Assembly (NCBI RefSeq): GCF_011752525.1
Contig: NZ_VWXI01000008.1
Coordinates: 124,001 to 188,000 of the forward strand
Reading direction: 5' to 3'
Length of the DNA stretch: 64,000 bases
Source: Pantoea sp. Cy-639
Lineage (GTDB): Bacteria > Pseudomonadota > Gammaproteobacteria > Pseudomonadales > Pseudomonadaceae
The notes beneath the pieces were generated by a model, which made no database searches, had not been told where the DNA came from, and saw only the letters and a program-made list of their open reading frames with translations. Made by a program: the position numbers and the translations under genes. Shown here piece by piece: positions 12,383 to 39,249 of this stretch (positions are counted from its first letter, which is position 1; each line of letters starts with the position of its first letter).

Positions 12383-13537
12383 ATGAAAGAGCACCTGGCC
12401 GCTGCCGCCCGTCAGCTTCTGTCACCCTCCCTGCGTTATGAAATCAGGAACGTTGCCAACACGGCGCGTGACTACCTGGGGCGCGCGTGTTTCTGGCGCT
12501 GGGAAGTCAGCCGTTTCAAGTTGCAGCAGGAAAGTCCCTTCGAAATTCTCTACATCGGTCGGAAACAGCAGCGAGAAATGGCCAAGCTGCTGATCGGCGG
12601 CAAGTCGCCCGACGGCGGGCCTGCGCCGCAGTTGCCGGTGGCGGCGGGCGATCAGAGGCATGTGGTGGTGGTCAGTGAAATGCCCAACCCCGGCGCCTTG
12701 AGCATCCCCCATTACCTGAGCGCGGTGGTGCCGCTGGGGCGTTCGCTCGATGACATCACCGCGCGTTACGACAGCGAACTGCGGCGCAGCCTGCGCAAGC
12801 ACCGGCCGTTGTACCAGATGCGCCAGACCCGTGACGATGAAGAGATCGCCATGGCCGACCGCGAGCTGCTGCGGCCCTACGCCAGCGCCAGGCAAGGCAT
12901 CCATGCCGCGCAGTTCCCCACCGACGACGTATTCCGCCTGGCCAAGGGGGTTGGGCGCCTGGACCTGATCTATCACGACGACGAGGTGGTGGCCTGCCAC
13001 CTGGGGTGTGAAATAACCCGTGGCGGCAAACGCTACTGGAGCACCCTGCGCTTTGGTTATCGCGAAACGGTGTTCTCCGATGCGAAGAAGTTGCGCGAAG
13101 TGAACTCCATCACCACGTTCATGGCGTTGGAATGGGCGTTGGAGAACGGTTACGACTACTACGACATCGGCCTGTGCCTGGCTCGTCCGGATGATGGCCT
13201 GCTCAAATGGAAGCGCCGGCGTGGTGGCGATATCGATTCGCTGGGTAATCATGCCTACCTGTTCCTGCGCTTGCCCAGGAGCGGTACCGCCAAGTTCCTC
13301 TGGGAGACGCCGTTGTTCGCGGTGGAAGGCAACAAGTTGACCCTTCACCTGGGTGTCCCTGAGGGCACGAGCGATGAGGAAGTTGCCAGCCGCTACCATG
13401 AAATGGTCTTTGGCGGGCTGGACAAGATCTACCTCTACGGCGCCAAGACTTCGGCGGAGCGGTTTCTTGAGATCCTGCGCAGCCGTTACGCCAACTTGCA
13501 GTCGCCCCCCGCGATGGAGCGTATTTCGTCCAGTTGA
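12383..13537 (+). CDS. GNAT/FemAB-type acyltransferase of the polysaccharide locus
   Basis: 384-residue cytoplasmic protein with the GNAT-fold features of BioF2-like/FemAB-related transferases found in polysaccharide clusters: YDSELRRSLRKHRPLYQ in the first half, and IYHDDEVVACHLGCEITRGG plus EVNSITTFMALEWALENGYDYYDIGLCLARPDDGLLKWKRR (positions about 205-280) in the second, where the acyl-CoA or aminoacyl substrate would bind. It is separated by 36 bases from the GT61 gene and probably cotranscribed with it. It would modify a sugar or its amino group with an acyl or aminoacyl group; the exact donor is unknown. A GGAGAAGAA ribosome site precedes the ATG. Confidence 0.65.
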   Translation: MKEHLAAAARQLLSPSLRYEIRNVANTARDYLGRACFWRWEVSRFKLQQESPFEILYIGRKQQREMAKLLIGGKSPDGGPAPQLPVAAGDQRHVVVVSEMPNPGALSIPHYLSAVVPLGRSLDDITARYDSELRRSLRKHRPLYQMRQTRDDEEIAMADRELLRPYASARQGIHAAQFPTDDVFRLAKGVGRLDLIYHDDEVVACHLGCEITRGGKRYWSTLRFGYRETVFSDAKKLREVNSITTFMALEWALENGYDYYDIGLCLARPDDGLLKWKRRRGGDIDSLGNHAYLFLRLPRSGTAKFLWETPLFAVEGNKLTLHLGVPEGTSDEEVASRYHEMVFGGLDKIYLYGAKTSAERFLEILRSRYANLQSPPAMERISSS

Positions 13538-13573
13538 TGACGATTGCGGTCGAATTACCAAGGAGCGTGCGTA

Positions 13574-14692
13574 ATGGGCATCGATCCCCGCAAATCCGTT
13601 GTCGCCGCCAGCAGCGGCCAATACCGCTGGAGCCTGGCAGCTTATCGCAACATCGTCAGGAAGCGGCTTGGCCACCAGGCACAGGTCGAGCTCAAGAGCC
13701 TGGCCGACAAGACCTGGGACATCGCGCCGGGCGAAACCACGGTGTCGCCACCGGCGTTCTTCCTGCCCAACCAGCTTGAGCGGGTGACCGGCTGGGAGGC
13801 CAAGCGCTTCTATCCCTACGTGCACCCAGGCCCGACCATGGCCGGTGGTATCCGCATGGAGCAGGGGCCGACCCGCGGCTACTTGCTCAAGGATGTCTGG
13901 TTGATCGACGGGGCGCTCTACAAAGGGCGGGCCAGTCATTGGCTGTCACTCAAGCCCAGGCCCTGGCCGGGTATCAGCATCGACCACGAGATCGAGCGCG
14001 GCGCCACCTATTGCACGCAGAACGGCAGCACCTGGTTCGGTACCTGGCTGATGGAAGACTGCGCCACCTATACGCTGGCATGCGACGAAGGGGTGCCGGT
14101 GACGATCGCGCCTTCGTCGCGCTACCCGTTGTTCACCCAGCAGCAGGCGTATGAAGACTGGCTGGGGATGCAGCCATTGCGCACGCGTGGTGCGTACTTC
14201 CATGAGCTGGTGCTGTTCGAGGACACCAGCAATAACCGCAGCCGTCACCAGCGCTACCGTGCCATGGGCGACAAGCTGTTGTCCCATGTCGATCCAACGG
14301 CACACCCTGGGGTGTTCATCCTGCGTGGCAGCGACGGTGACTTGCGCCTGTTGCGCAACGAGCTGGAAATCGCCGAGCACCTGCGCCGGCATCGGGGTTT
14401 TCGGGTCATCGACCCGATGCACAGCGACGTGCCGGGGATTGTCGCGGCCTGTGCCGGGGCGCGGGTGGTGATCGGGGTCGAAGGCAGCCAGTTGGTGCAC
14501 GGCGTCAATGTGCTGCAGCCGGGCTGCGCGTTGCTGGCCTTGCAGCCCCCCAATCGTTTTGTCAGCTACTACAAGTACCTGACCGATCGGGATCACCAGC
14601 ACTATGGCTTCGTGGTCGGTGTGCCTGAGGGGAATGGTTTCCGTATCGACATCGAGGAGGTCGAGCGGACCTTGGATCTGTTCCCGGCTTGA
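13574..14692 (+). CDS. Family 61 glycosyltransferase (DUF563)
   Basis: 372-residue putative glycosyltransferase of the GT61 family. The C-terminal half carries the diagnostic block: FRVIDPMHSDVPGIVAAC then VVIGVEGSQLVHGVNVLQPG (about 290-320), with FHELVLFEDTSNN upstream. AAGGAG at 13560 fixes the ATG at 13574; a longer frame from 13544 overlaps the intergenic space and is not favoured. It is downstream of the GNAT gene and 300 bases before the small PEP-CTERM-like gene. Bacterial GT61 enzymes act in capsule and lipopolysaccharide assembly; donor and acceptor are not known here. Confidence 0.75.
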   Translation: MGIDPRKSVVAASSGQYRWSLAAYRNIVRKRLGHQAQVELKSLADKTWDIAPGETTVSPPAFFLPNQLERVTGWEAKRFYPYVHPGPTMAGGIRMEQGPTRGYLLKDVWLIDGALYKGRASHWLSLKPRPWPGISIDHEIERGATYCTQNGSTWFGTWLMEDCATYTLACDEGVPVTIAPSSRYPLFTQQQAYEDWLGMQPLRTRGAYFHELVLFEDTSNNRSRHQRYRAMGDKLLSHVDPTAHPGVFILRGSDGDLRLLRNELEIAEHLRRHRGFRVIDPMHSDVPGIVAACAGARVVIGVEGSQLVHGVNVLQPGCALLALQPPNRFVSYYKYLTDRDHQHYGFVVGVPEGNGFRIDIEEVERTLDLFPA

Positions 14693-14993
14693 CGCCGTTG
14701 CAATGGCGCTTAACTGGCCATGGCGCAGTCTTCGCCTGTTTGCCTAACTTTGTCTCAACTTATTGAAATGGATGAACTTTCCCTGGAAGTTCGAGGTGTC
14801 GAAAAAGGCCTGCGGGAGTAGAAAGTGAGCGTTGTTTTCCGCTGTCGGTATTTTGACTAATTAGCGAGATCCCCATTGAGATTTATTATGGTGGCGGATC
14901 GTTGACGTAGTGTCATTGTGCCCATAAGCTCAAATCAGCGGCGAAGAACACCACTCCCAAACAACAATAACCGTCCTCTGTCAGGAGGGGATC
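14693..14993 (+). other. AT-rich intergenic region before the small PEP-CTERM-like gene
   Basis: 301 bases, clearly richer in A+T than the surroundings. It contains TTGACT (14853-14858) and TTGACG (14902-14907); the latter is followed 17 bases on by TAAGCT, a weak -10. It ends with AGGAGGGG, an excellent ribosome site for the ATG at 14994. No gene seen. Confidence 0.4.
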
Positions 14994-15170
14994 ATGGGCT
15001 CGACACTGTTCATCAAATCCGTTTTCCTGTTGGTGCTTCTGAGCGGCGCGGCGCGTGCGGCAGACTCTTACGTCAGCCAGGCGAGCGTCATGCCAGTAGC
15101 GACGGCCGGCTGGTTGTTCGGCTTCGCGGTAATCGGATTCGTGGTAGTCGCCAATAGAAGAAGAATCTGA
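14994..15170 (+). CDS. Small secreted protein with PEP-CTERM/VPLPA-like C-terminal tail
   Basis: 58 residues. The N-terminus is a signal peptide (lysine at 8, hydrophobic VFLLVLLSGAARA, cleavage near residue 22). Only about ten residues (ADSYVSQASV) lie between it and the tail. The tail is MPVATAGWLFGFAVIGF followed by a hydrophobic stretch and ANRRRI: proline motif, transmembrane helix, terminal arginine cluster. That order is the same as in PEP-CTERM and VPLPA-CTERM sorting signals, which are recognised by exosortases in exopolysaccharide-producing bacteria. The ribosome site AGGAGGGG is strong. No exosortase gene is in the window. It lies just ahead of the export operon. Function unknown; the mature protein may be a membrane-anchored accessory of the locus. 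Confidence 0.7.
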   Translation: MGSTLFIKSVFLLVLLSGAARAADSYVSQASVMPVATAGWLFGFAVIGFVVVANRRRI

Positions 15171-15228
15171 CATTTACCCTGTCGAACAAGTGTCTATCGC
15201 ATTCAAATAAATGTCTGCCGAGGAGGGT

Positions 15229-15265
15229 GACAGCAAATTGACTTGAACCGGTTGAATTTGCTGTC
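15229..15265. repeat. 11-bp inverted repeat upstream of the export operon
   Basis: GACAGCAAATT (15229-15239) and AATTTGCTGTC (15255-15265) form perfect arms around a 15-base centre that itself contains AACCGGTT. There is no T tract. It lies 19 bases upstream of the predicted -35 box, so an operator is as likely as a terminator of the small gene before it. Confidence 0.6.
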
Positions 15266-15283
15266 TCTCGCCGTATTGGCGGC

Positions 15284-15311: not shown

Positions 15312-15475
15312 CCAATCTGCCAGCGCACTGACGCTTTCATCGCGCTGGCCCAGGTAATCAGGCAATCGGTTTTTATGGATGATCGAGGCCGTCGCAGCGG
15401 CCGGTCAGGCTGCGAAGTGGTGTCAGTGCTGTGCTCATCAGTGCTCTTTGCATGCCGAGAGGCCAGGAGGGTCCC

Positions 15476-16078
15476 ATGGTACGTTCATTGTCTTCGCTGC
15501 TGTGCGTGCTGCTGATTAGCGCGTGCGCTCAGTCTCCCGGAAGGGGGGGCAACGCTGACGTTCCGTTGGAAACGCGGCCCGTTGGCGTCACCGAAATTCC
15601 CTATCTACTCAGCCCCGGCGACAAAGTCCTGGTCTCAGTGTGGCAGGAAGATACTTTGCGTCAGGAAACCACGGTGCTACCCGACGGCAGTATCACTTTT
15701 CCGCTGGCCGGGCGCATTGACGTAGCGGGTCTCGACGTTACCGCGGCAGCGAAGAAAATAACCACCGGCCTCAAACCTTTCCTCGCCGATCCCAATGTCA
15801 GTGTCGTGGTGATCAATCCCGCCGGTAATCTCGTGTATGTCCAGGGCAAGGTGATCAAGCCCGGGCCTGTGCCCATGACTGGCCCCACCGTGGTACTGCA
15901 GGCCCTGAGCATGTCGGGTGGACTGGACAAGTTTGCCGACGTAAGTGACATCAAGGTGATTCGCAACAACGGCATCAGGCAACAAGTGCTGCCGGTGCGC
16001 TACAAGGACCTCGTTTCCGGACGTGACATGTCCACCAACTTCCAACTCCAGGCGGGTGACACGCTGGTTGTCCCATAA
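15476..16078 (+). CDS. Polysaccharide export lipoprotein (short OPX/Wza family)
   Basis: 200-residue outer-membrane lipoprotein: signal peptide with lipobox LISAC, then a Poly_export domain (YLLSPGDKVLVSVWQE, FPLAGRIDVAGLDVTAA) and a SLBB-type domain (GNLVYVQGKVIKPGPVPM). At 200 residues it is about half the size of Wza and lacks the C-terminal amphipathic helix that makes the outer-membrane pore. The next gene encodes a beta-barrel, so the pore is probably supplied by a partner protein. AGGAGG at 15465 fixes the ATG. First gene of the operon with the beta-barrel, the Wzz-type protein and the tyrosine kinase. Confidence 0.88.
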   Translation: MVRSLSSLLCVLLISACAQSPGRGGNADVPLETRPVGVTEIPYLLSPGDKVLVSVWQEDTLRQETTVLPDGSITFPLAGRIDVAGLDVTAAAKKITTGLKPFLADPNVSVVVINPAGNLVYVQGKVIKPGPVPMTGPTVVLQALSMSGGLDKFADVSDIKVIRNNGIRQQVLPVRYKDLVSGRDMSTNFQLQAGDTLVVP

Positions 16079-16106: not shown

Positions 16107-17222
16107 GTGCCTATTCTTCGAACAACAAGTGTTGCAACGGCAATCCTGATGTTGCCGGTCCCGGGCCTGGCCCAAGCGTCCAACTGGCAGTCCTCGGTCG
16201 AGGTGCCTACTACTGTCGAGTACGACAGCAACCCATTGCTCCTGACTTCGGAGGAGAAGGGTGTGATGCGAACGATCATCGAGCCGCGCTACAGCCTGGT
16301 CGGTACCTTCGACCGCGACGAGTGGCGGTTGGGCCTGGGCGCGCATGTCCTGCACTCGTCCAACACCTCGGTGCTGGGCAACCGCGAGGACCCGGACGTG
16401 AGCCTGGGCTGGCGGCACGAGACCGAACGCGGGCATTACGGCCTGCACGCGCAGTACCTCGAAAGCTCGACGTTGTCCGGCACGGTGCTGGACACCGGCG
16501 TGGTGACCACCGACGGCACGCAGAAACTGATCACCCTCACCGGGGACTGGGAATACGCGCTGACCGAGCGCAGCACGTTGAGCAACGAGATCAGCTACGA
16601 CCATGCCCGCTACGACATCACGTCGCTGACCGGTTTCGAAGAGCTGGGGAACACCTTCAAGTACACCTACGCCTGGAGCGAGCGCGCGGATGTCTTCACC
16701 TCCATGCGTGTGCGGCGCTACGAGCCACAGCAGACCTCCACGGGCGCCGTCGCCACCAACAGCTACACACCCAGTATCGGCATGCGCTACCAGCTTACCG
16801 ACCAGCTGGAGACGGTGATGCACATCGGTGTCAGCCAGGTCTCCGGCTCCAACCAGCGCAAGGAGGAGGGCGGCGTGCTGCTGGACTATCGCGGTGCGCG
16901 CGCCGATGCCAGCTTCAGCGCGGAACGCCGTACCGATGCCAGCGCCCAGGGCAGCTTCGCCCAGCTCGACATGATCCAGGGCACCTGGAGCTACGCGCTC
17001 AGTGAACTGAACCGAGTGGGCCTGAACGCCGCCTGGCAGGACAGCAAGGGCCAGACCCCGAACACCTTGCAGACCTACAGCGTCTGGGCCAGTCGCCAGT
17101 TCTCGCCTTTCTGGGATCTGCGCCTATCGTTGATGTACAAGGAACGCCAGCAGAGTCACCTGCCGGATGCCGTTGCCACGATTGTCGGAATGACCCTGAC
17201 CTACAGATTCCCCGAACTCTGA
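16107..17222 (+). CDS. Outer-membrane beta-barrel of the exopolysaccharide export machinery
   Basis: 371 residues with signal peptide cleaved after GLAQA. The mature part is a run of alternating hydrophobic/polar strands with tight turns (for example WRLGLGAHVLHSS, HYGLHAQYLESSTLSG, TFKYTYAWSERADVF, GMRYQLTDQLETVMHIG) and ends LTYRFPEL, consistent with an outer-membrane barrel of about 16-18 strands of the kind placed beside short OPX proteins in exopolysaccharide loci. The start is a GTG at 16107 with a poor ribosome site; it gives a normal signal peptide. The gene lies 28 bases after the OPX gene. Role inferred: the outer-membrane exit channel for the polymer. Confidence 0.75.
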   Translation: MPILRTTSVATAILMLPVPGLAQASNWQSSVEVPTTVEYDSNPLLLTSEEKGVMRTIIEPRYSLVGTFDRDEWRLGLGAHVLHSSNTSVLGNREDPDVSLGWRHETERGHYGLHAQYLESSTLSGTVLDTGVVTTDGTQKLITLTGDWEYALTERSTLSNEISYDHARYDITSLTGFEELGNTFKYTYAWSERADVFTSMRVRRYEPQQTSTGAVATNSYTPSIGMRYQLTDQLETVMHIGVSQVSGSNQRKEEGGVLLDYRGARADASFSAERRTDASAQGSFAQLDMIQGTWSYALSELNRVGLNAAWQDSKGQTPNTLQTYSVWASRQFSPFWDLRLSLMYKERQQSHLPDAVATIVGMTLTYRFPEL

Positions 17223-17242
17223 ACCCCAGCCGGGTGGCCGCC

Positions 17243-18808
17243 ATGAACGCTGAGTACGAGCTGTCACTGAAGGACTACATCGCCATCATCAAGGACCGCG
17301 CGCTGCTGCTGGGGGTGAGCATCGTGGTCATCCTCGCAGCGACGGTAGGGGTCGCCATGAGCATGCCGCCGGTGTACGAGTCCACCGGCACCATCCTCGT
17401 CGAGTCCCAGCAGATATCCCCGGAGCTGGTGGCCTCGAACAACACCAGCTTCGCCGACGAGCGCATCGAGGTCATCCGCCAGCGCGTGATGACCCGCGAG
17501 AACCTGCTGCAGATCATCGACAAGTACCACCTGTTCGCCGATGGCAGCCGCCCGCTCAGCGAGTCGGACAAGATCGACCTGATGCGCAACTCGATCGTCG
17601 TCACCACCCTCAGCACCTTCGTCAAGGGTCGCGGCGACACCACCGTGGCCTTCAACGTGGCCTTTGAACACAAGCGCCCGGAGGTGGCCAAGGAGGTTGC
17701 CGACGAGTTGGTCACATTGTTCCTCAACGAGAACATGAAGCAGCGCACCGAGCGCGCCAGCGAGACCACTGAATTCCTCACCCAGGAGGCCAACAAGCTT
17801 GGCGCCGAACTGGCCACCCTGGAGAACCAACTGGCCGACTTCAAACAGGCCCACGCCAATGCGCTGCCCGAGAACCAGGCGCTGCGCATGAGCATGCTGT
17901 CGCGGGCCGAGCTGGAGTTCCGCGAAGTCGACCGTGACTACAAGAACGCCCAGGAAGAGCTGCGCCTGCTGCAACTGGAGCTGTCGGCGGCCAATGCCGG
18001 CCTGGCGACCAAGCCCGATGGCAGCACCCGACCGATCGAGCAGCCCCAGGACCTGGGCAGCCTCAAGGCCGAGTACGCCCGGCTGCTGACCAAGTACACC
18101 GAGGCCCACCCCGATGTGGTGGCCATCAAGCGCAAGATCCAGGCGTTGCAGGACGCCGGGGCCGGTTCGGGCGCCGGTGCCGTGGCGGTGAACCTGGATG
18201 TCGCCAGGGCCCAGGCGAAGATCACCGCCGCCCAGGACAACATCGCCTCCCTGGCCCAGCAGAAGCGTGACCTGAGCCAGAAGATGTCGGGCTACGAGGC
18301 AGATATCCTCGAGGCGCCACAGGTCGAGCGTGGCCTGGTCACGCTGATGCGCGATCACGACAACGCGCGCAAGAAATACGAAGAGATCCGCAACAAGGAA
18401 ATGGGCGCGAAGATCACCGAAAGCCTGGAACAGGAGAACAAGGCCGAGCGCTTCGTGCTCCTCGAGCCGCCGCTGCTGCCGGAGAAACCGGTCAAGCCCA
18501 ACCGCAAGAAGATCGTCGCCCTGGGCCTGGTGCTGGCACCGGCCGGTGGTGGCGCACTGGTGATGTTGCTGGAAATGCTCAACCAGCGGGTGCGCAGTGT
18601 CGGCGCCCTGGAAAGCGTGCTGGGCAAGCGGGTGTTGGTGGCCGTCCCGTTCATCGCCACCCAGGCGGAGCTGGCACGACGCCGAAAATGGCTGACGATC
18701 CTGATCGCCGGCGGGGTGTTGCTGGCGGTCGTGCTGCTGCTGGTGGTCCATCTCTTCTATATGCCGCTGGACCTGCTGCTCATTAAAACGTTGTCTCGTT
18801 TCGGATAG
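17243..18808 (+). CDS. Wzz/GumC-type polysaccharide co-polymerase (chain-length determinant)
   Basis: 521-residue inner-membrane protein. Transmembrane helix 1 near residues 22-42, a Wzz domain with VYESTGTILVESQQISPEL, a long periplasmic coiled coil (about 175-390), the GNVR-like segment before transmembrane helix 2 near residues 480-505. It lacks the cytoplasmic kinase of Wzc; the kinase is the next gene, 11 bases on. A GTG nine bases upstream (17234) is an alternative start, but GGGTGG fits the ATG at 17243 better. It controls polymer length and joins the inner membrane to the OPX/beta-barrel export complex. Confidence 0.88.
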   Translation: MNAEYELSLKDYIAIIKDRALLLGVSIVVILAATVGVAMSMPPVYESTGTILVESQQISPELVASNNTSFADERIEVIRQRVMTRENLLQIIDKYHLFADGSRPLSESDKIDLMRNSIVVTTLSTFVKGRGDTTVAFNVAFEHKRPEVAKEVADELVTLFLNENMKQRTERASETTEFLTQEANKLGAELATLENQLADFKQAHANALPENQALRMSMLSRAELEFREVDRDYKNAQEELRLLQLELSAANAGLATKPDGSTRPIEQPQDLGSLKAEYARLLTKYTEAHPDVVAIKRKIQALQDAGAGSGAGAVAVNLDVARAQAKITAAQDNIASLAQQKRDLSQKMSGYEADILEAPQVERGLVTLMRDHDNARKKYEEIRNKEMGAKITESLEQENKAERFVLLEPPLLPEKPVKPNRKKIVALGLVLAPAGGGALVMLLEMLNQRVRSVGALESVLGKRVLVAVPFIATQAELARRRKWLTILIAGGVLLAVVLLLVVHLFYMPLDLLLIKTLSRFG

Positions 18809-18819
18809 GGAAGGCTGCG

Positions 18820-19608
18820 ATGGACAGGATCACGCCCGCTGCTGGAAAGAACATCCACCCGGTTACCTCAGGCACTCCGCGCGTCCCGGAGCAGACCGAG
18901 CTGCTGGGGCCCTTCGACTACATACAGACCCGCACCGTGCCCCTGCGCCCCGAGCACCTGGAGCGTAACCGGATCGTGGCGTACAACAAGAACTCGAACA
19001 TGAGCTGGGCCTTCGACCTGCTGCGCACCCAGGTGTTGCAGGCCATGGAGGAGAACGGCTGGCGCACCCTGGCGATCACCTCGCCGACGCCCGAGGCGGG
19101 CAAGACCGTGCTGGCGATCAACCTGGCCATGAGCATCGCCCATCACACTACCCGTACCGCGCTGCTGGTCGACTTCGACCTGCGTCGGCCGCGGGTGGGC
19201 AGCACCCTCGGGCTGCCGATGGACAAGGCGCTCAACGACCTGCTGGCGGACAAGGCGCCGCTGGAGGACGTGCTGGTCAACCCGACCTTGCCGCGCTTCG
19301 TGGTGCTGCCGACCCGCGAACCGATCCCGCTGTCCACCGAGGTGCTGTCCTCACCCCGGGTCAACAACCTGATCGGCGACCTGCGCGACCGCTACGAATC
19401 GCGCATCTGCATCTTCGACCTGCCGCCGCTGCTCAGCTCAGACGACGCCATCACCGTGCTGCCGAAGTTCGACTGCGTGCTACTGGTGGTTGCCAACGGG
19501 GTGAACAACAAGAAGGAGATCGAGGACTGCCTGTACCACCTGGCCACCGCCAACCTGCTGGGTGCGGTACTGAACAAGGCAGAGCCGGAGAAACGCTCCT
19601 ACTACTGA
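18820..19608 (+). CDS. Bacterial tyrosine kinase (CpsD/CapB type)
   Basis: 262-residue cytoplasmic ATPase partner of the co-polymerase. Walker A is SPTPEAGKTVLAINLA, Walker A' is LLVDFDLRRPR, Walker B is ICIFDLPPLLSSDD. The C-terminus ends RSYY: a minimal tyrosine cluster of two, fewer than the clusters of Wzc or CpsD, so cyclic phosphorylation may be limited. An N-terminal 60-residue extension precedes the kinase fold. It is last in the export operon and ends at a perfect hairpin shared with galE on the other strand. Confidence 0.85.
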   Translation: MDRITPAAGKNIHPVTSGTPRVPEQTELLGPFDYIQTRTVPLRPEHLERNRIVAYNKNSNMSWAFDLLRTQVLQAMEENGWRTLAITSPTPEAGKTVLAINLAMSIAHHTTRTALLVDFDLRRPRVGSTLGLPMDKALNDLLADKAPLEDVLVNPTLPRFVVLPTREPIPLSTEVLSSPRVNNLIGDLRDRYESRICIFDLPPLLSSDDAITVLPKFDCVLLVVANGVNNKKEIEDCLYHLATANLLGAVLNKAEPEKRSYY

Positions 19609-19624: not shown

Positions 19625-19657
19625 AAATACCCCTGGCATTCAGTGCCAGGGGTATTT
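19625..19657. terminator. Bidirectional terminator, kinase gene / galE
   Basis: Perfect 14-bp arms AAATACCCCTGGCA (19625-19638) / TGCCAGGGGTATTT (19644-19657) with a 5-base loop; A and T runs at the two ends serve both strands. The galE stop codon (19640-19642) lies in the loop region. Confidence 0.8.
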
Positions 19658-20602
19658 GCATTCCCAGTTCCAGGCGTGGGCGACGATCTGCTCCAGCGAG
19701 CTGAACGCTGGCTGCCAGCCCAGTACGCTGCGCGCCTTGCCCGCATCGGCCACCAGTCGCGGCGGGTCGCCGGCACGGCGTGGCGCGTCGAGGGTGGCGA
19801 TGGTTCGACCGGTCACCGTGCGCGCGGCGTCGATCACCTGCTGCACCGAGAAGCCCTGGCCATTGCCCAGGTTGAACGCCGTGCTGGTGCCGCCTGCGCG
19901 CAGGTAGTCGATGGCCTGGGCGTGGGCCGAGGCCAGGTCGCTGACATGCACATAATCGCGGATGCAGGTGCCATCGGGCGTGTCGTAGTCGCGACCATAG
20001 ACGGTGATCGCCTCGCGGCGTCCGGCGGCGGCCTGCAGGATCAGCGGGATCAGGTGGGTCTCCGGCTCGTGGCATTCGCCCAGTTGCCCGCCTGGATCGG
20101 CCCCGGCGGCGTTGAAGTAGCGCAGGCTGACCGACTTGAGTCCATACGCCTGGTCGAACTCGCCGAGCATCTGCTCGACGATCCACTTGCTGCGCCCATA
20201 AGGGTTGATCGGTGCCTTGGGGTGGGCTTCGTCGATGGGTACCGACAAGGGGTCGCCATACACGGCGGCGCTGGAAGAGAAGACCAGGTGGTTCACCTGG
20301 GCGCGGCGCATGGCCTGGAGCAGGCTCAGGGTGGCGGCGACGTTGTTCTGGTAGTACTTGCCGGGGTCGGCGACGGACTCGCCGACCTGGATGAACGAGG
20401 CGAAGTGAAAGACCGCGTCGAAACGGTGTTCGCCGAACAGCCGGTCCAGGGCCGGGCCATCGACAATGTCCATGGCGACCCAGGCGATGCCGGGCCGGGG
20501 GCGGGCGGTATCGACCACCACCACCTGGTGCCCGGCCTTCGTCAGGTGCCGGACCATGTGTGAACCGATGTAGCCCGCGCCACCGACGACCAGATATTTC
20601 AT
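19640..20602 (-). CDS. galE: UDP-glucose 4-epimerase
   Basis: 320-residue extended short-chain dehydrogenase/reductase interconverting UDP-Glc and UDP-Gal (or the N-acetyl forms). NAD-binding GGAGYIGSHMVRHL at the N-terminus; catalytic Ser in VFSSSAAVYG and the YxxxK motif as YGRSKWIVE; RYFNAAGADPGG and DGTCIRDYVHVSDLA are typical GalE motifs. AGGAGG precedes the ATG. Third gene of the minus-strand operon with the polymerase and the GH5 enzyme; likely supplies the galactose donor for the exopolysaccharide. Confidence 0.92.
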   Translation of the reverse strand: MKYLVVGGAGYIGSHMVRHLTKAGHQVVVVDTARPRPGIAWVAMDIVDGPALDRLFGEHRFDAVFHFASFIQVGESVADPGKYYQNNVAATLSLLQAMRRAQVNHLVFSSSAAVYGDPLSVPIDEAHPKAPINPYGRSKWIVEQMLGEFDQAYGLKSVSLRYFNAAGADPGGQLGECHEPETHLIPLILQAAAGRREAITVYGRDYDTPDGTCIRDYVHVSDLASAHAQAIDYLRAGGTSTAFNLGNGQGFSVQQVIDAARTVTGRTIATLDAPRRAGDPPRLVADAGKARSVLGWQPAFSSLEQIVAHAWNWECKYPWH

Positions 20603-23281: not shown

Positions 23282-24808
23282 TCACCTGGCCTGAAGGCGT
23301 GGATGGGCGAATTGGCTGGCCTGCTGGAACCTGAGCCGGCGGACCATCTGGATGTAGCCTGCGCCCAGGCCGCCGACCGACCAGTAGACGATGGGAATTA
23401 CCGTGATGCTGCTGACGGTGAAGATGATCACCAGGATGCCGATCAGCGTCGCCAGCAGCGCGCGACCTAGCTGGCGGTACTCGTCGTCCTTGTCGGGGAA
23501 GGCGCGCATGGCCTTGTTGATGCCCAGCAGGACGCTGGCGAAGAACGCCAGGAACAGCCCCAGGCCGACCAGGCCGACGCGCAGGGCCAGGTTGATGTAG
23601 GTGTTGACGATGTCGATGATGCCGTCGCCCTGGATCATCGACTGCATCTCCGGCGTGCTGCGAAAGTCGAACGAGCCGAACCACAGGTTGCGCTGGATGA
23701 CGATCATCGAGTTGTCGATCAGGCGCTCGCGGTAGGTGATGTTCTCTGCCTCGATGTTGCCGATGAACGGCAGCAGGTCGAGGACCTTCTCGCCCCCGGG
23801 CAGCACTGCCAGCAGGGGCAGCGCCAGCACTCCGGCCAGCGCCAGCAGCATCAGGCGGCGCACGGCGCCGCGGCCGGTGGCGATGAACGCGGCGACGATC
23901 ACCCCGGCACCGATCCAGGGGCCGCGCGACAGCGGCGCGAACAGCCCGGCCGCCAGCAGCAGGGCTCCGAGCAGGCAGTGCAGGCGGTTGCGGACATAGC
24001 CCTGGACGAACAGGAACAGACCGATGCCGACGCTGATGACGTAGCCCAGGGCGATGGCCTGGCCGGTGGTGGCGCTGGCGCGCAGCGAACCGCCGCGGCT
24101 GAGGTAGCTGGTCATCGACCACTCAACGCCCATGGCGTCGAGCAGGGCGTCGTACAGCAACCAGTGGCGGATGGTCTCGGCCACGCCGATCAGGGCGAGC
24201 AGGAAGGCGGCCAGCACGAAGGCCAGCAACGCGTCCTTGAAGTCGCTGAGCTGACGCAGGCCGCGGCTGGCGACGTAGTAGGGCAGGATCACGTCCAGGT
24301 ACAGGTACAGTGACTGGCGCAAGGTGTCGGTGGGGGTGGTCTCGCGCAGGTACAACCCGCCCATCAGCAGCACGCCGGCCAGCACCAGCCTGTCAGGCCA
24401 GGTGCGCCCGAAGCCTATGCTTTCGGGGAGCTTGCGCAGCTTCAGGGCTGCCGGCAGCAATACGCACAGGCTCAGCAGGCGAACGTGATTGAGGTCGATC
24501 AGGTAGTTGACCACGCCGAACCCGGGGACCTGCACCGTGGCCGGCGGAATCAGGAACAGCAGCATGTAGAACAGCGCCACCGGATTGTGTTCGCGGCGCC
24601 CGGCCAGGTACATGATCACGCTGGCGGCAACGGCATACACCCAGAAGCTGAACGAGCAGAACGCCACCAGGGTCAAGATGAACCAGAGGTTGCGCCGCCG
24701 CTTGAAGTCAGCGTAGGGGATCAGGTCGCAGGCAGACCGGCGGGCGAAGCCGAACACCAGGATGGCCACCAGCAGGATCACGATCAGCGCGCGGAAATGT
24801 TCGGGCAT
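23282..24808 (-). CDS. O-antigen ligase/polymerase-like protein (Wzy)
   Basis: 508-residue integral membrane protein with about 12 predicted helices and the large periplasmic loop of Wzy_C/O-antigen ligase proteins. The conserved patch is FAPLSRGPWIGAG (about 305-317) followed by ITYRERLIDNSMIVIQRNLWFG; the Arg and RGPW-type motif are the family signature. It should polymerise lipid-linked repeat units flipped by the Wzx encoded divergently at 24951. First gene of the minus-strand operon wzy, GH5 hydrolase, galE. Confidence 0.82.
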   Translation of the reverse strand: MPEHFRALIVILLVAILVFGFARRSACDLIPYADFKRRRNLWFILTLVAFCSFSFWVYAVAASVIMYLAGRREHNPVALFYMLLFLIPPATVQVPGFGVVNYLIDLNHVRLLSLCVLLPAALKLRKLPESIGFGRTWPDRLVLAGVLLMGGLYLRETTPTDTLRQSLYLYLDVILPYYVASRGLRQLSDFKDALLAFVLAAFLLALIGVAETIRHWLLYDALLDAMGVEWSMTSYLSRGGSLRASATTGQAIALGYVISVGIGLFLFVQGYVRNRLHCLLGALLLAAGLFAPLSRGPWIGAGVIVAAFIATGRGAVRRLMLLALAGVLALPLLAVLPGGEKVLDLLPFIGNIEAENITYRERLIDNSMIVIQRNLWFGSFDFRSTPEMQSMIQGDGIIDIVNTYINLALRVGLVGLGLFLAFFASVLLGINKAMRAFPDKDDEYRQLGRALLATLIGILVIIFTVSSITVIPIVYWSVGGLGAGYIQMVRRLRFQQASQFAHPRLQAR

Positions 24809-24950: not shown

Positions 24951-26327
24951 ATGCCGTCGATTGAGGTGCCGTCACCGGTGAGCCTGCGCAGGCGCGCGAT
25001 CTGGGCCGGGGCATGGAATGCGCTGTCGCTGCTCGCCTCGCAGGTACTGCGCCTGGGCGGCAACCTGATCATGGCCCGGCTGCTGCTGCCGGAGATGTTC
25101 GGCGTGATGGTCATCGCCACCACGGTGTCGGTGCTGCTGCACCTGCTCTCGGATGTCGGCCTGCGGCAGAACATCATCCAGAGCCCACGGGGTGATGATC
25201 CGGACTTCCTCAACACGGCCTGGACCGTACAGATCCTGCGCGGTTTCACCCTGTTCGCGATGACCTTGCTGCTGGCCCTGGCCTCCTGGCTGGCGCAGTT
25301 GGCCAACCTGTGGCCGGCCGATTCCACCTACGCTGCGCCGGAACTGCCGCTGGTCCTGGCGATCACCGGTGTCTCGGCGATCATCTACGGCCTGCAGTCG
25401 ACCAAGATGGACATCGCCGTGCGCACCCTGCAGCACAAGCGCGTGGTGCTGGTGGACCTGGCCTCGCAGGTGGTCGGGCTCGTGGTGATGCTGGTGATCG
25501 GCTATTTCACCCGCTCCATCTGGTCGCTGGTGGCGGCGGGGCTGGCCGGGGCGCTGACCGGTACCGTGCTCGGCCACCTGGCCATGAGCGGACCGCGCAA
25601 CCGCCTGCGCTGGGACCGCACGGCGCTGGCCGAACTGGTGGTGTTCGGGCGCTGGATCCTGGTGTCGTCGATCGTCGGCGTGCTGGCCATGTACGGCGAC
25701 CGCATGTGGTTCGGTGCCAGCATGTCGGCGGCCGAACTTGGCGTCTATTCGATCGCCGTGCTGATCCTCGGGTCGATCCAGACCGGCCTGATGAAAGTGG
25801 TCGGCATGGTCGCGCTGCCGGCCTTCAGCGAGGCGACACGCTCCGGCGATACCGAGCGCCTGAAGGCCCTGTACCACCGTGCACGGCTGCTGGTCGACCT
25901 GCTGATGCTGTTCGCCATGGGCGGTTTCCTGACGGCCAGCCCGCTGCTGATCGACTGGATGTACGACGAGCGCTATGCCGGTGCAGGCACTATGCTGGCT
26001 ATTCTCTCGCTGTCGTTTTTCACCTTGCGCTATACCTTGGCCCACCAGGTCTGGATCGCCCTCGGGCTGACCAAGTACCAGGCGATGGACAACATCATCC
26101 GGCTGGTGGCGCTGTGGGGTGGCTTGCCGCTGTTGCTGGCCATCGGCGGGGTCAAGTATGCGATCTGGGGCGTGGCCCTGCACAGCTTCCCGACGCTGGT
26201 GCTGATCGTCTACGTCAATTGCAAGCTGGACATGTTCAACCTGAAACGGGAACTGGTGGTGTTGCCGATGATCGCGCTCGGGGCGTTGTGCGGCGTGCTG
26301 TTGACGGACTTCTTCAACTGGCTGTGA
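24951..26327 (+). CDS. Oligosaccharide flippase (Wzx)
   Basis: 458-residue MOP-superfamily membrane protein with about 14 helices. N-terminal AWNALSLLASQVLRLGGNLIMARLLLPEMFG is the start of the polysaccharide_synt domain, and SDVGLRQNIIQSPRGDDPDFLNTAW is the characteristic loop. It moves undecaprenyl-linked repeat units to the periplasm. First gene of the long + strand operon, divergent from the polymerase gene; a TATAGT hexamer at 24913-24918 in the 142-base gap may be its -10. CAGGGA precedes the ATG. Confidence 0.88.
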   Translation: MPSIEVPSPVSLRRRAIWAGAWNALSLLASQVLRLGGNLIMARLLLPEMFGVMVIATTVSVLLHLLSDVGLRQNIIQSPRGDDPDFLNTAWTVQILRGFTLFAMTLLLALASWLAQLANLWPADSTYAAPELPLVLAITGVSAIIYGLQSTKMDIAVRTLQHKRVVLVDLASQVVGLVVMLVIGYFTRSIWSLVAAGLAGALTGTVLGHLAMSGPRNRLRWDRTALAELVVFGRWILVSSIVGVLAMYGDRMWFGASMSAAELGVYSIAVLILGSIQTGLMKVVGMVALPAFSEATRSGDTERLKALYHRARLLVDLLMLFAMGGFLTASPLLIDWMYDERYAGAGTMLAILSLSFFTLRYTLAHQVWIALGLTKYQAMDNIIRLVALWGGLPLLLAIGGVKYAIWGVALHSFPTLVLIVYVNCKLDMFNLKRELVVLPMIALGALCGVLLTDFFNWL

Positions 26328-29797: not shown

Positions 29798-30331
29798 ATG
29801 CTCGACAATATCCGCGCCGACCTGCGCGCGTACGGTGGCGACTGGGGGGCCCAGGGCTTCTGGGTGATGCTGGTGTACCGCTTCGGGCGCTGGCGCTACG
29901 GCGTGCGTCCGGCGTTGCTGCGCAAGCTGCTGTCGTTGGTCTACAAGCTATTGTTCAAGCTGGTACAGGTACTCACCGGCATCGAACTGCCCTGCGAGGT
30001 CGAGATCGGCCGCAATTTCGTCATCGACCATTTCGGCGGCATCGTCGTCAGTGGCTATGCCCGCTTCGGCGATGACTGCCGGATCCGCAACGGTGTGGTG
30101 GTGGGGCTCAAGAACGTCGACACACCGGTGGCACCGGTGTTCGGCAACAACGTGGACATCGGGACCGGGGCCAAGATCCTGGGCGCCATCCGCATTGGCG
30201 ACAACGTGGTGATCGGCGCCAATGCCGTGGTGCTGATGGATGTGCCGGACAACTGCATCGCCGTCGGCGTGCCGGCCACCGTCAAGCCGCGCAAGTCGCT
30301 GCGGGACGTGATGCCAGGCGCCGAGGAGTGA
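29798..30331 (+). CDS. Serine acetyltransferase-like (CysE-type) acetyltransferase
   Basis: 177 residues. A helical N-terminus (MLDNIRADLRAYGGDW, RFGRWRYGV) leads to a left-handed beta-helix: IGRNFVIDHFGGIVVSGYA, NGVVVGLKNVD, NNVDIGTGAKILGAIRIGDNVVIGANAVVLMDVPDNCIAVGVPA. Short CysE-like proteins of this kind are common in exopolysaccharide loci, where they probably acetylate sugars rather than serine. A separate biosynthetic cysE is expected elsewhere in the genome. It is 13 bases after the GT2 gene. Confidence 0.82.
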   Translation: MLDNIRADLRAYGGDWGAQGFWVMLVYRFGRWRYGVRPALLRKLLSLVYKLLFKLVQVLTGIELPCEVEIGRNFVIDHFGGIVVSGYARFGDDCRIRNGVVVGLKNVDTPVAPVFGNNVDIGTGAKILGAIRIGDNVVIGANAVVLMDVPDNCIAVGVPATVKPRKSLRDVMPGAEE

Positions 30332-37830: not shown

Positions 37831-39249
37831 ATGGTTTTCGAACCCAGAAGCAGCCGCTCCGTGCTCCAGCGCCGGAGCAGCGTGAGCAACGCCCTCCAGG
37901 CCGGGCTGGACGGTATCGCGGTGACCGGGGTGGCCTGGTACCTGATCTACGAGCAATTCGGCTACATCACCTCTGACTACGTGATCATGCTGTTGCTGCT
38001 GATCGGCGCCCTGGCGGTGATCTACGACCACTACGGCATCTACCGCAGCAATGTCGGCCTGACCACCAAGGCGTTCCGCCTGTTCAAGGCCTGGTCGGCG
38101 ACGTTCTGCTTCCTCGCGGTCATGGCGTTCCTCACCAAGCAGAGCCAGGAGTACTCGCGGTTGCTGGTGGCGCAGTTGTTCGTGATTGGCTACGCGGTAC
38201 AGCTGTTCCTGCACTTCATCGTGCGCGAGGCGCAGAAACACTTCATGGCCCATGCTTCGCGTCCGGAGAACGTGCTGATCATCGGCTCCGGCGACCTGGC
38301 CAATTTCCTCTACCTGAAGATCAGCAACAACCCGTGGCTGGGCGAGCGGGTGATCGGCTGTCTGTTGATCGGCGAGGCCGAGGCCGACGACAACCCGCAG
38401 AGCCTGCCGCCGCTACCGGTGCTGGGGCATATCCGCGAGCTCGATGCCATCGTTGCCCGGCATGCCATTCGCACCGTCTACCTGGTGACCCCGCTGGGTG
38501 GGTCGGACGTGATCAACGACGTCTACCTCAAGCTGCTGGACAAGTGCATCGCGGTGAACTGGGTGCCGGACATCTTCTCGCTGCGGCTGATCAACCACAG
38601 CGTGCGGGAAATCGCCGGGATCCCGGTGCTGACCTTGTCGGAGACCCCGCTGACCGGGATGAGCCTGTTCCTCAAGAACCTCGAGGACCGGGTGCTGGCG
38701 GCGCTGATCCTGCTCTGCGCTTCGCCGGTACTGCTGACCATCGCCGTGGTGATCAAGCTCGACAGCCCGGGGCCGGTGTTCTTCCGCCAGGAGCGCACCG
38801 GCTGGACCGGCGAGTCGTTCCGCATCTGGAAGTTCAGGAGCATGCATGTGCATCAGCCCGAGGCCGGGGTGATCGAGCAGGCGCAGAAGAACGACCCGCG
38901 GCTGACCCGGATCGGTGGCTTCATCCGCCGCACCAGCCTCGACGAGCTGCCGCAACTGTTCAACGTGATCACCGGCGAGATGTCGCTGGTCGGTCCGCGC
39001 CCCCATGCGCTGCAGCACGACACCCTGTATTCCCAGGACATCGTCGACTACTTCGCCCGCCACAACATCAAGCCTGGGATGACGGGACTGGCCCAGGTCC
39101 GCGGTTTCCGTGGCGAGACCAAGGACATCGCGCAAATGATCCAGCGGGTCGACTCGGACATCGAGTACATCAACAACTGGTCGCTGTGGCTGGATTTCGT
39201 GATCCTGGTCCGTACCCTCAACGCCTTCACCGGCAAGCAGGCCTATTAG
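37831..39249 (+). CDS. Undecaprenyl-phosphate sugar phosphotransferase (initiating enzyme)
   Basis: 472-residue polyprenol-phosphate hexose-1-phosphate transferase, WcaJ/EpsE class, which starts the repeat unit on undecaprenyl phosphate. Four N-terminal helices (about 25-130), a Rossmann-like middle part ([20 protein letters not shown]), one helix (about 285-310), then the catalytic domain: [56 protein letters not shown] and [15 protein letters not shown]. The DELPQLFNV and SLVGPRP motifs are complete. Last gene of the operon; its stop codon abuts the stop of the opposed LysR gene without a gap. Confidence 0.9.

Follow-up and report, generated by a model that had tools for sequence, protein, structure and literature searches.

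Both the role of PEP-CTERM tails and the tight link between exosortases and exopolysaccharide (EPS) clusters are poorly understood. The export lipoprotein, PCP and tyrosine kinase encoded in the window, a stretch of 64,000 nucleotides, resemble TIGR03027, TIGR03007 and TIGR03018 of the PEP-CTERM/EpsH (XrtA) system, although none of the three reaches its curated cut-off and no exosortase was found. A further described pair comprises VPLPA-CTERM (TIGR03370) and XrtD (TIGR04152). XrtD or a close homologue, together with a full protein bearing the same tail as the small protein studied here, is found at the matching loci of P. fluvialis, P. cuatrocienegasensis and a MAG. In the 65 genomes that carry this operon's PCP no exosortase is above cut-off, and the short form, its cargo gone, misses the model. 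In the accessible part of the profile table of PMC1569441, P. putida and P. fluorescens are scored PEP-CTERM-negative. The small protein itself belongs to a family named EppA in NCBIfam, a name that refers neither to descent from an XrtD system nor to loss of the sortase. No paper on EppA in this sense was found in a mostly open-access literature, and among papers joining exosortase, PEP-CTERM and P. putida none appears by title to treat it; the one paper found that names both VPLPA-CTERM and Pseudomonas concerns a denitrifying reactor.

The other system to be compared is the Pea cluster of P. putida KT2440 (PP_3132-3142, with PP_3126-3128 nearby). The available text of PMC4287175 lists PP_3132 as a transporter, PP_3133 as an oxidoreductase, PP_3134 as a conserved protein, PP_3135 as a glycosyltransferase and PP_3136 as an acetyltransferase. 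Past its export operon, the window encodes Wzy-like, Wzx, GMC oxidoreductase, hexapeptide transferase, glycosyltransferase and UGP products, and from Wzx on these match the order that starts at the first pea gene, the likeness being to the published gene list and not to KT2440 directly. This gene order suggests that the window cluster is Pea. According to the accessible portion of PMC7716237, Pea is a feature of the P. putida group that also turns up, though more rarely, in the P. jessenii and P. mandelii subgroups, a range that fits the names of the eppA-bearing records here. The published accounts of Pea, as far as they are available, do not mention a small gene upstream of PP_3126.

EppA is a PEP-CTERM-derived protein maintained without an exosortase and without cargo. 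With somewhat better than even confidence, it is regarded as the remnant of a VPLPA-CTERM secreted protein, kept without its sortase and now most likely serving as a small inner-membrane subunit of Pea-type export. Its origin from an exosortase-locus protein is well supported; its present function we infer.

The features of the locus are collected in Table 1.

Table 1. Position, strand and basis of assignment of the features at and around eppA in the window
Feature	Position	Strand	Basis
GNAT/FemAB-like acyltransferase, 5' of eppA	12383..13537	+	Acetyltransf_6, 20.5 bits (cut-off 22)
Glycosyltransferase family 61 (GT61)	13544..14692	+	domain match
FleQ-box-like element GTCGGTATTTTGAC, at -150, 3 mismatches	14844..14857	.	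consensus from PMC6120874
Ribosome-binding site AGGAGG	14983..14988	+	sequence
eppA, EPS-associated small membrane protein, 58 aa	14994..15170	+	NCBIfam NF046088
Signal peptide / first hydrophobic segment, codons 1-22	14994..15059	+	sequence, pN/pS; AxA cleavage site by eye
Segment ADSYVSQASVM, codons 23-33, probable remnant of the lost cargo's last segment	15060..15092	+	alignments
VPLPA-CTERM-derived tail, codons 34-58, one transmembrane helix, basic end	15093..15167	+	alignments, conservation
Second FleQ-box-like match, 3 mismatches, between eppA and export gene	15229..15242	.	
Wza-type polysaccharide export lipoprotein (Poly_export + SLBB)	15476..16078	+	TIGR03027-like, below cut-off
Secreted protein, probably outer-membrane (OMP); conserved export-operon member	16107..17222	+	sequence; no Pfam match
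Wzz/PCP chain-length protein	17234..18808	+	TIGR03007-like, 259.7 bits (cut-off 278.85)
Tyrosine autokinase	18820..19608	+	TIGR03018-like, below cut-off
Epimerase	19640-20602		named by eye
Wzy/O-antigen-ligase-like polymerase	23282..24808	-	31.1 bits (cut-off 31.7)
Wzx flippase; counterpart of PP_3132 (first pea gene) by gene order	24951..26327	+	
Acetyltransferase	29798-30331		named by eye
Undecaprenyl-phosphate glycosylphosphotransferase (UGP)	37831..39249	+	by similarity

The product of eppA, MGSTLFIKSVFLLVLLSGAARAADSYVSQASVMPVATAGWLFGFAVIGFVVVANRRRI, matches NF046088 (anchor_EppA) over positions 1-58 of 58 with 124.2 bits, the curated cut-off being 90; the protein is real and its family already catalogued. 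It had been described in the earlier note as an orphan and as possibly new. The first description holds in that no exosortase accompanies the gene, and otherwise both give way to the NCBIfam entry. The genome of the window has one clear copy, the sole other match having an E-value of 0.49. A chance open reading frame is excluded by the 124-bit match, by the constant length (58 amino acids in 43/43 same-genus loci above the EppA cut-off and in 39/39 named short loci), by a low omega and by a clean decoy, an HMM made from eppA-family sequences finding no match in the reversed window. The NG86 omega across the 43 short loci is 0.074, the NG86 values being pairwise sums over related sequences with synonymous sites near saturation. 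The good ribosome site and the AT-rich upstream region remarked on in the same note are both confirmed: a Shine-Dalgarno-like sequence within 16 nt of the start is kept in 63/65 related loci (background 0.064), and the 301 bp 5' of eppA have 48.8% GC, against 65.3% for the window, in which only 0.1% of 301-bp stretches are equally AT-rich.

The distribution of the gene follows that of the export operon. A survey of 398 same-genus genomes gave the operon's PCP in 65 (E<=1e-60) and a match to the EppA model in 66 (E<=1e-3), with 43 above cut-off. All 65 PCP genomes carry an EppA-family gene, all 43 genomes above the EppA cut-off have the PCP, and the sole EppA genome without such a PCP is the Pseudomonadaceae MAG G240, which has a tail protein and two exosortases. 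These surveys scored the best candidates of each genome (up to 15 for EppA, 6 for PF09721 and 3 for PCP), so that absences are less certain than presences. The export gene lies directly 3' of eppA in all 43 short loci and in 20 of the 22 long ones described below, a survey that the earlier note had proposed; in the other two surveyed long loci it is not downstream within the flank examined. The cluster is rearranged in some long-form genomes. Two of them, G228 and G079, have the PCP 14-17 kb off and in opposite orientation, and in seven named long loci (L160, L162, L163, L165, L166, L177, L210) glycosyltransferase genes of opposite strand come after the long gene. The Pseudomonas short eppA also occurs in L193 (NZ_VWXK01000007.1), whose record bears the title Pantoea sp. 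Ap-967. Four pieces (L038, L044, L045, L053) were left out of the survey as duplicates of longer ones.

The exosortase has not followed the tail. PF09721 scores above cut-off in 9/398 same-genus genomes, of which only G240 belongs to the EppA set. With TIGR04178, none of the 65 PCP genomes is above the cut-off of 23 bits (four are weak, at 15-17 bits), and G240 is above it. In the genome of the window the best PF09721 match reaches 13.8 bits, against a cut-off of 25.7, and TIGR04178 gives no match at E<=0.1; a similarity search of the window was likewise empty when a relative's XrtD, XrtB and EpsI served as queries. The observation that the window lacks an exosortase is borne out, and it extends to the genome at the cut-offs of both models. 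Eight same-genus genomes without an EppA match have divergent exosortases of 86-97 bits with PF09721 (e.g., L035, L036, L037); the divergent-exosortase genomes are G013, G054, G148, G166, G180, G318, G333 and G378.

Outside the genus, the EppA model was searched in 274 class-level genomes. It is above cut-off only in the genome of the window, and tail-only matches below cut-off occur in 15 others, 12 of which have an exosortase and three no match. Among eight named non-Pseudomonas genomes with tails, two (L230, L232) have no exosortase match. From these counts, exosortase-less tails are not unique to this lineage, although draft genomes may hide the enzyme. A genome outside the genus that is 98% complete, G581, has two EppA-model tail matches and none with PF09721, and perhaps holds further exosortase-less tails.

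The origin of EppA is disclosed by its longer homologues. In 23 of the 66 genomes the EppA match lies inside a longer protein, of 114 to 218 amino acids from the chosen starts and below the NF046088 cut-off. The 22 such proteins of same-genus genomes with the PCP consist of an EppA-like signal peptide, a cargo segment that shows graded erosion in alignments, and the tail. Tails such as NAVPLPAAAWLFSSALFGFIVVANRRKV are close to VPLPA-CTERM and under the model cut-off. With TIGR03370 (cut-off 25.35) the MAG protein scores 24.0 bits and three long forms 21.5, 20.5 and 18.4, a fourth not being listed. Short EppA has no match at E<=1 to the NCBIfam PEP-CTERM and VPLPA-CTERM models (TIGR02595, TIGR03370) and none in Pfam (PF07589) at 0.001; a Pfam scan of five proteins at E<=1 gave a sub-threshold PEP-CTERM match in one long form only. 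Four long forms are weakly like the flocculation protein PepA (19.5-21.2 bits, NCBIfam cut-off 80). The long form occurs mostly under P. fluorescens-group names and the short form mostly under P. putida-group names, these labels being taken from record titles and species taxonomy; L187 and L190, although titled P. putida, carry the long form.

Full-length proteins with the tail share a locus with the enzyme in several relatives. In G240 such a protein lies about 5 kb from XrtD, the exosortase specific for VPLPA-CTERM (556.7 bits, cut-off 400), on a contig that also encodes XrtB, EpsI, a PrsT-like protein, a PEP-CTERM-type ATPase and UGP. This MAG is 77% complete and taken alone could reflect a binning error, a doubt removed by the matching exosortase locus of named genomes. 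In P. fluvialis the order is UGP, full-length EppA homologue, second PEP-CTERM-like protein, export gene, OMP, PCP and kinase, followed by counterparts of most further window genes and then by the ATPase, PrsT and XrtD on the opposite strand. In P. cuatrocienegasensis, XrtD, PrsT, ATPase and UGP are immediately 5' of the same gene set. A Methylotenera MAG shows UGP, an EppA-tailed protein, export gene, OMP, PCP, kinase and a Wzy-like gene, with its exosortase on a separate contig. In exosortase-bearing relatives UGP is 5' of the eppA homologue. Among 47 named genomes, PF09721 is above cut-off in nine, namely P. fluvialis, P. cuatrocienegasensis, the Methylotenera MAG, the G240 record and five of seven other non-Pseudomonas genomes with VPLPA-type tails, and in none of the 30 long-form and 6 short-form Pseudomonas genomes. 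Weak relatives of the MAG protein's cargo (29-36% identity) occur in 3/274 class-level genomes, two of them with exosortases. An AlphaFold2 model of the full-length P. fluvialis protein (21 sequences) has a mean pLDDT of 48.7, with only the tail helix confident.

Tail and signal peptide are common to EppA and the long forms, and the tail is common to the proteins of XrtD loci with the same gene order. The link to PEP/VPLPA-CTERM signals that had been drawn from layout stands as far as the tail is concerned, through the long homologues and the XrtD loci, and amounts to more than layout, namely well-supported descent from a full-length protein of exosortase-bearing loci by cargo loss. The loss of the second proline of VPLPA was considered as a marker of sortase loss and dropped, since P. 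cuatrocienegasensis lacks this proline and keeps XrtD. The 37 distinct exosortase-less long forms have the first proline in 32 cases and the second in 15.

The loss of the enzyme has left traces in DNA. With XrtD of P. cuatrocienegasensis as query, short matches of 49-77% identity were found in 6/30 exosortase-less long-form genomes (records titled P. fluorescens HK44, PS691 and FW300-N2E3, P. batumici, P. brassicacearum 48H11 and Pseudomonas sp. H3(2019)). All fall within residues 345-521, the C-terminal EpsI part, and none in the exosortase part. All six sites are 5' of UGP and the long eppA, which is the place of XrtD in P. cuatrocienegasensis, and PrsT fragments accompany four of them. Debris at the expected place makes enzyme loss with tail retention visible. 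The same search of 17 short-form genomes found none, so that in this lineage the loss is deduced from absence and phylogeny. In a tree of 64 PCP sequences (the partial PCP of G340 being left out of the trees), one branch parts 42 short from 22 long loci with support 100/100. When three exosortase-bearing loci are added, they fall outside all 64 exosortase-less ones (SH-aLRT 99), and in this rooted tree the short clade has a support of 100 and the long clade a weak 47 (SH-aLRT), the tree being a quick one with SH-aLRT only and a very long Methylotenera branch. In the short form, the ADSY-x-N/S-Q segment is similar to the last part of the cargo domain (P. fluvialis SDSYVNQ, and GSYVNQ in long homologues), which makes deletion simpler than insertion, and the change would have run from long to short. 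The ancestor presumably processed the full protein by XrtD, with PrsT, the ATPase and a second PEP-CTERM-like protein in the same EPS cluster. The lineage of the window would then have lost the exosortase block, leaving the tail unprocessed and presumably anchored in the inner membrane. The cargo would have been eroded in one clade, mostly of P. fluorescens-group names, and wholly removed, apparently once, in the other, mostly of P. putida-group names, to give a signal peptide, some 11 residues and the tail.

Selection on these parts indicates what has been kept. The tail reads P-V-A-T-A-G-W, then a hydrophobic helix, then RRR-I; the second proline of the motif is absent from a layout otherwise PEP-CTERM-like, and by eye PVATAG has no Gly run such as would suggest a GlyGly-CTERM/rhombosortase motif. 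The layout originally proposed, with signal peptide, short motif, transmembrane helix and basic C-terminal end, agrees with sequence, alignment and predicted helices. AlphaFold2 models two helices, 2-27 and 35-53 (mean pLDDT 76.9, pTM 0.49), and a 29-sequence EppA profile had no match among PDB chains at E<=1. Tail residues A38, W40, A45, G48, F49, A53 and N54 are invariant in 43/43 short loci, as are A20, A22, A23 and D24. The pN/pS of the tail is 0.17 in the short form and 0.162 (0.083-0.261) in the long form, these and the following intervals being bootstraps over codons and not over lineages. The long-form counts leave G240 out. The long-form signal peptide has 0.536 and the long-form cargo 0.68 (0.605-0.762), a value that is not neutral, so that the cargo may still do something. 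The short-form signal peptide has 0.156 (0.084-0.245), compared with 0.548 and 0.622 for those of the OMP and the lipoprotein encoded nearby in these genomes. In the cargo-less form the signal peptide therefore appears as important as the tail, and such constraint implies that it is probably functional too, acting either as a retained second helix in a hairpin or as a released peptide. The invariant AxA motif fits ordinary cleavage and speaks against the hairpin; cutting is favoured by this motif, and a function by the constraint on the whole signal peptide.

Such constraint leaves very little probability to a functionless, decaying relic, which the origin by loss of cargo and processing enzyme might suggest; the low omega with synonymous change near saturation, the constant length and the presence in 65/65 PCP genomes make it the least credible account of EppA. 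It could also be argued that processing of EppA continues through an enzyme not related to the exosortase/archaeosortase family, with the peptide released or transferred. A strongly conserved tail with its basic end and first proline (52/54 distinct short sequences), in every PCP genome, would fit such processing, but two models find no exosortase family member above cut-off, the second proline of the signal is lost in 54/54 sequences, and each genome has one tail-bearing reading frame among up to 15 candidates scored, against a median of 8 in PEP-CTERM genomes according to the available part of PMC1569441. Continued processing is accordingly judged improbable.

Known enzymes include none that would remove the tail of EppA. 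The protein would probably be exported by Sec, its tail helix halting in the inner membrane and leaving the basic end on the cytoplasmic side. A small inner-membrane subunit is the most likely function because it is the membrane part that selection has kept. The invariant small and aromatic residues of the helix suggest that it packs against a second transmembrane helix. As the gene accompanies the export operon, PCP, Wzx and Wzy are the candidate partners, to one of which EppA may bind through the conserved face of its tail helix. Many known bacterial small membrane proteins are regulators, and EppA might instead stand outside the export complex as a regulator, e.g., of the tyrosine autokinase or of c-di-GMP input. 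The same neighbourhood, a FleQ-like element of its own and a kinase in the operon agree with this role, which co-occurrence cannot tell from a structural one; it is considered unlikely, though a shade less so than continued processing, and the subunit is preferred.

A broader proposal, advanced tentatively and with a little less than even confidence, is that PEP-CTERM-type tails have a second partner in the EPS export machine besides the exosortase. This contact alone would have kept the tail after sortase and cargo were lost, the signal peptide being recruited as a second membrane segment. Pseudomonas offers a natural experiment in a genetically tractable genus, with enzyme and cargo in some lineages, a shortened cargo and some enzyme debris in others, and the tail alone in the window lineage. 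If the tail matters without the enzyme, a direct contact with the export machine would follow, and the 58-residue protein would provide a minimal handle on it. A testable role would also be given to a small gene likely overlooked beside FleQ-controlled export genes.

The surroundings of eppA bear on its regulation. The P. putida FleQ consensus is GTCAaAAAAtTGAC in the accessible text of PMC6120874, in which a general FleQ motif could not be confirmed. An element with at most 3 mismatches to it begins 145-165 nt 5' of the start codon in 37/65 loci (26 short, 11 long; G240 left out of these and of the distance counts), compared with 8 matches in 23,725 other upstream positions. One hundred shuffled motifs occupied the 21-position slot in a mean of 0.41 loci and a maximum of 17. 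As the loci are related, the 37 occurrences represent conservation and not 37 independent events. FleQ ChIP in the same study gave a strong peak upstream of PP_3126, a site that by gene order alone would adjoin eppA. PP_3126-3128 and most pea genes are jointly lower in (p)ppGpp-null P. putida, as given in the available text of PMC12814882.

A cis leader peptide, acting by stalling or attenuation on the downstream export genes, could be imagined from the position of eppA directly 5' of the export gene (43/43 short, 20/22 long loci) and from a dyad 3' of it in the window. Between eppA and the beginning of the export-gene match, short loci have anything from 203 to 369 nt, in two of 22 long loci the export gene is not downstream within the flank, and in the seven named long loci glycosyltransferases of the other strand follow. 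Attenuation is rated low because short loci do not conserve the dyad at 15229-15265, only 4/43 having a perfect dyad of at least 9 nt, and the C-terminus is accounted for by descent from a sorting tail; a leader is thus very unlikely, and the small membrane protein is retained as the preferred account.

Other parts of the cluster may be younger. The GNAT/FemAB-like and GT61 genes had no match in the 40-kb cluster of P. fluvialis or in the stretches examined of P. cuatrocienegasensis; their arrival in the cluster may postdate the loss of the exosortase. Within 6-kb flanks, both are near eppA in 25/39 named short loci and in 7 long ones. Two inverted repeats, at 15222-15272 (with the dyad at 15229-15265) and at 15319-15349, lie between eppA and the export gene.
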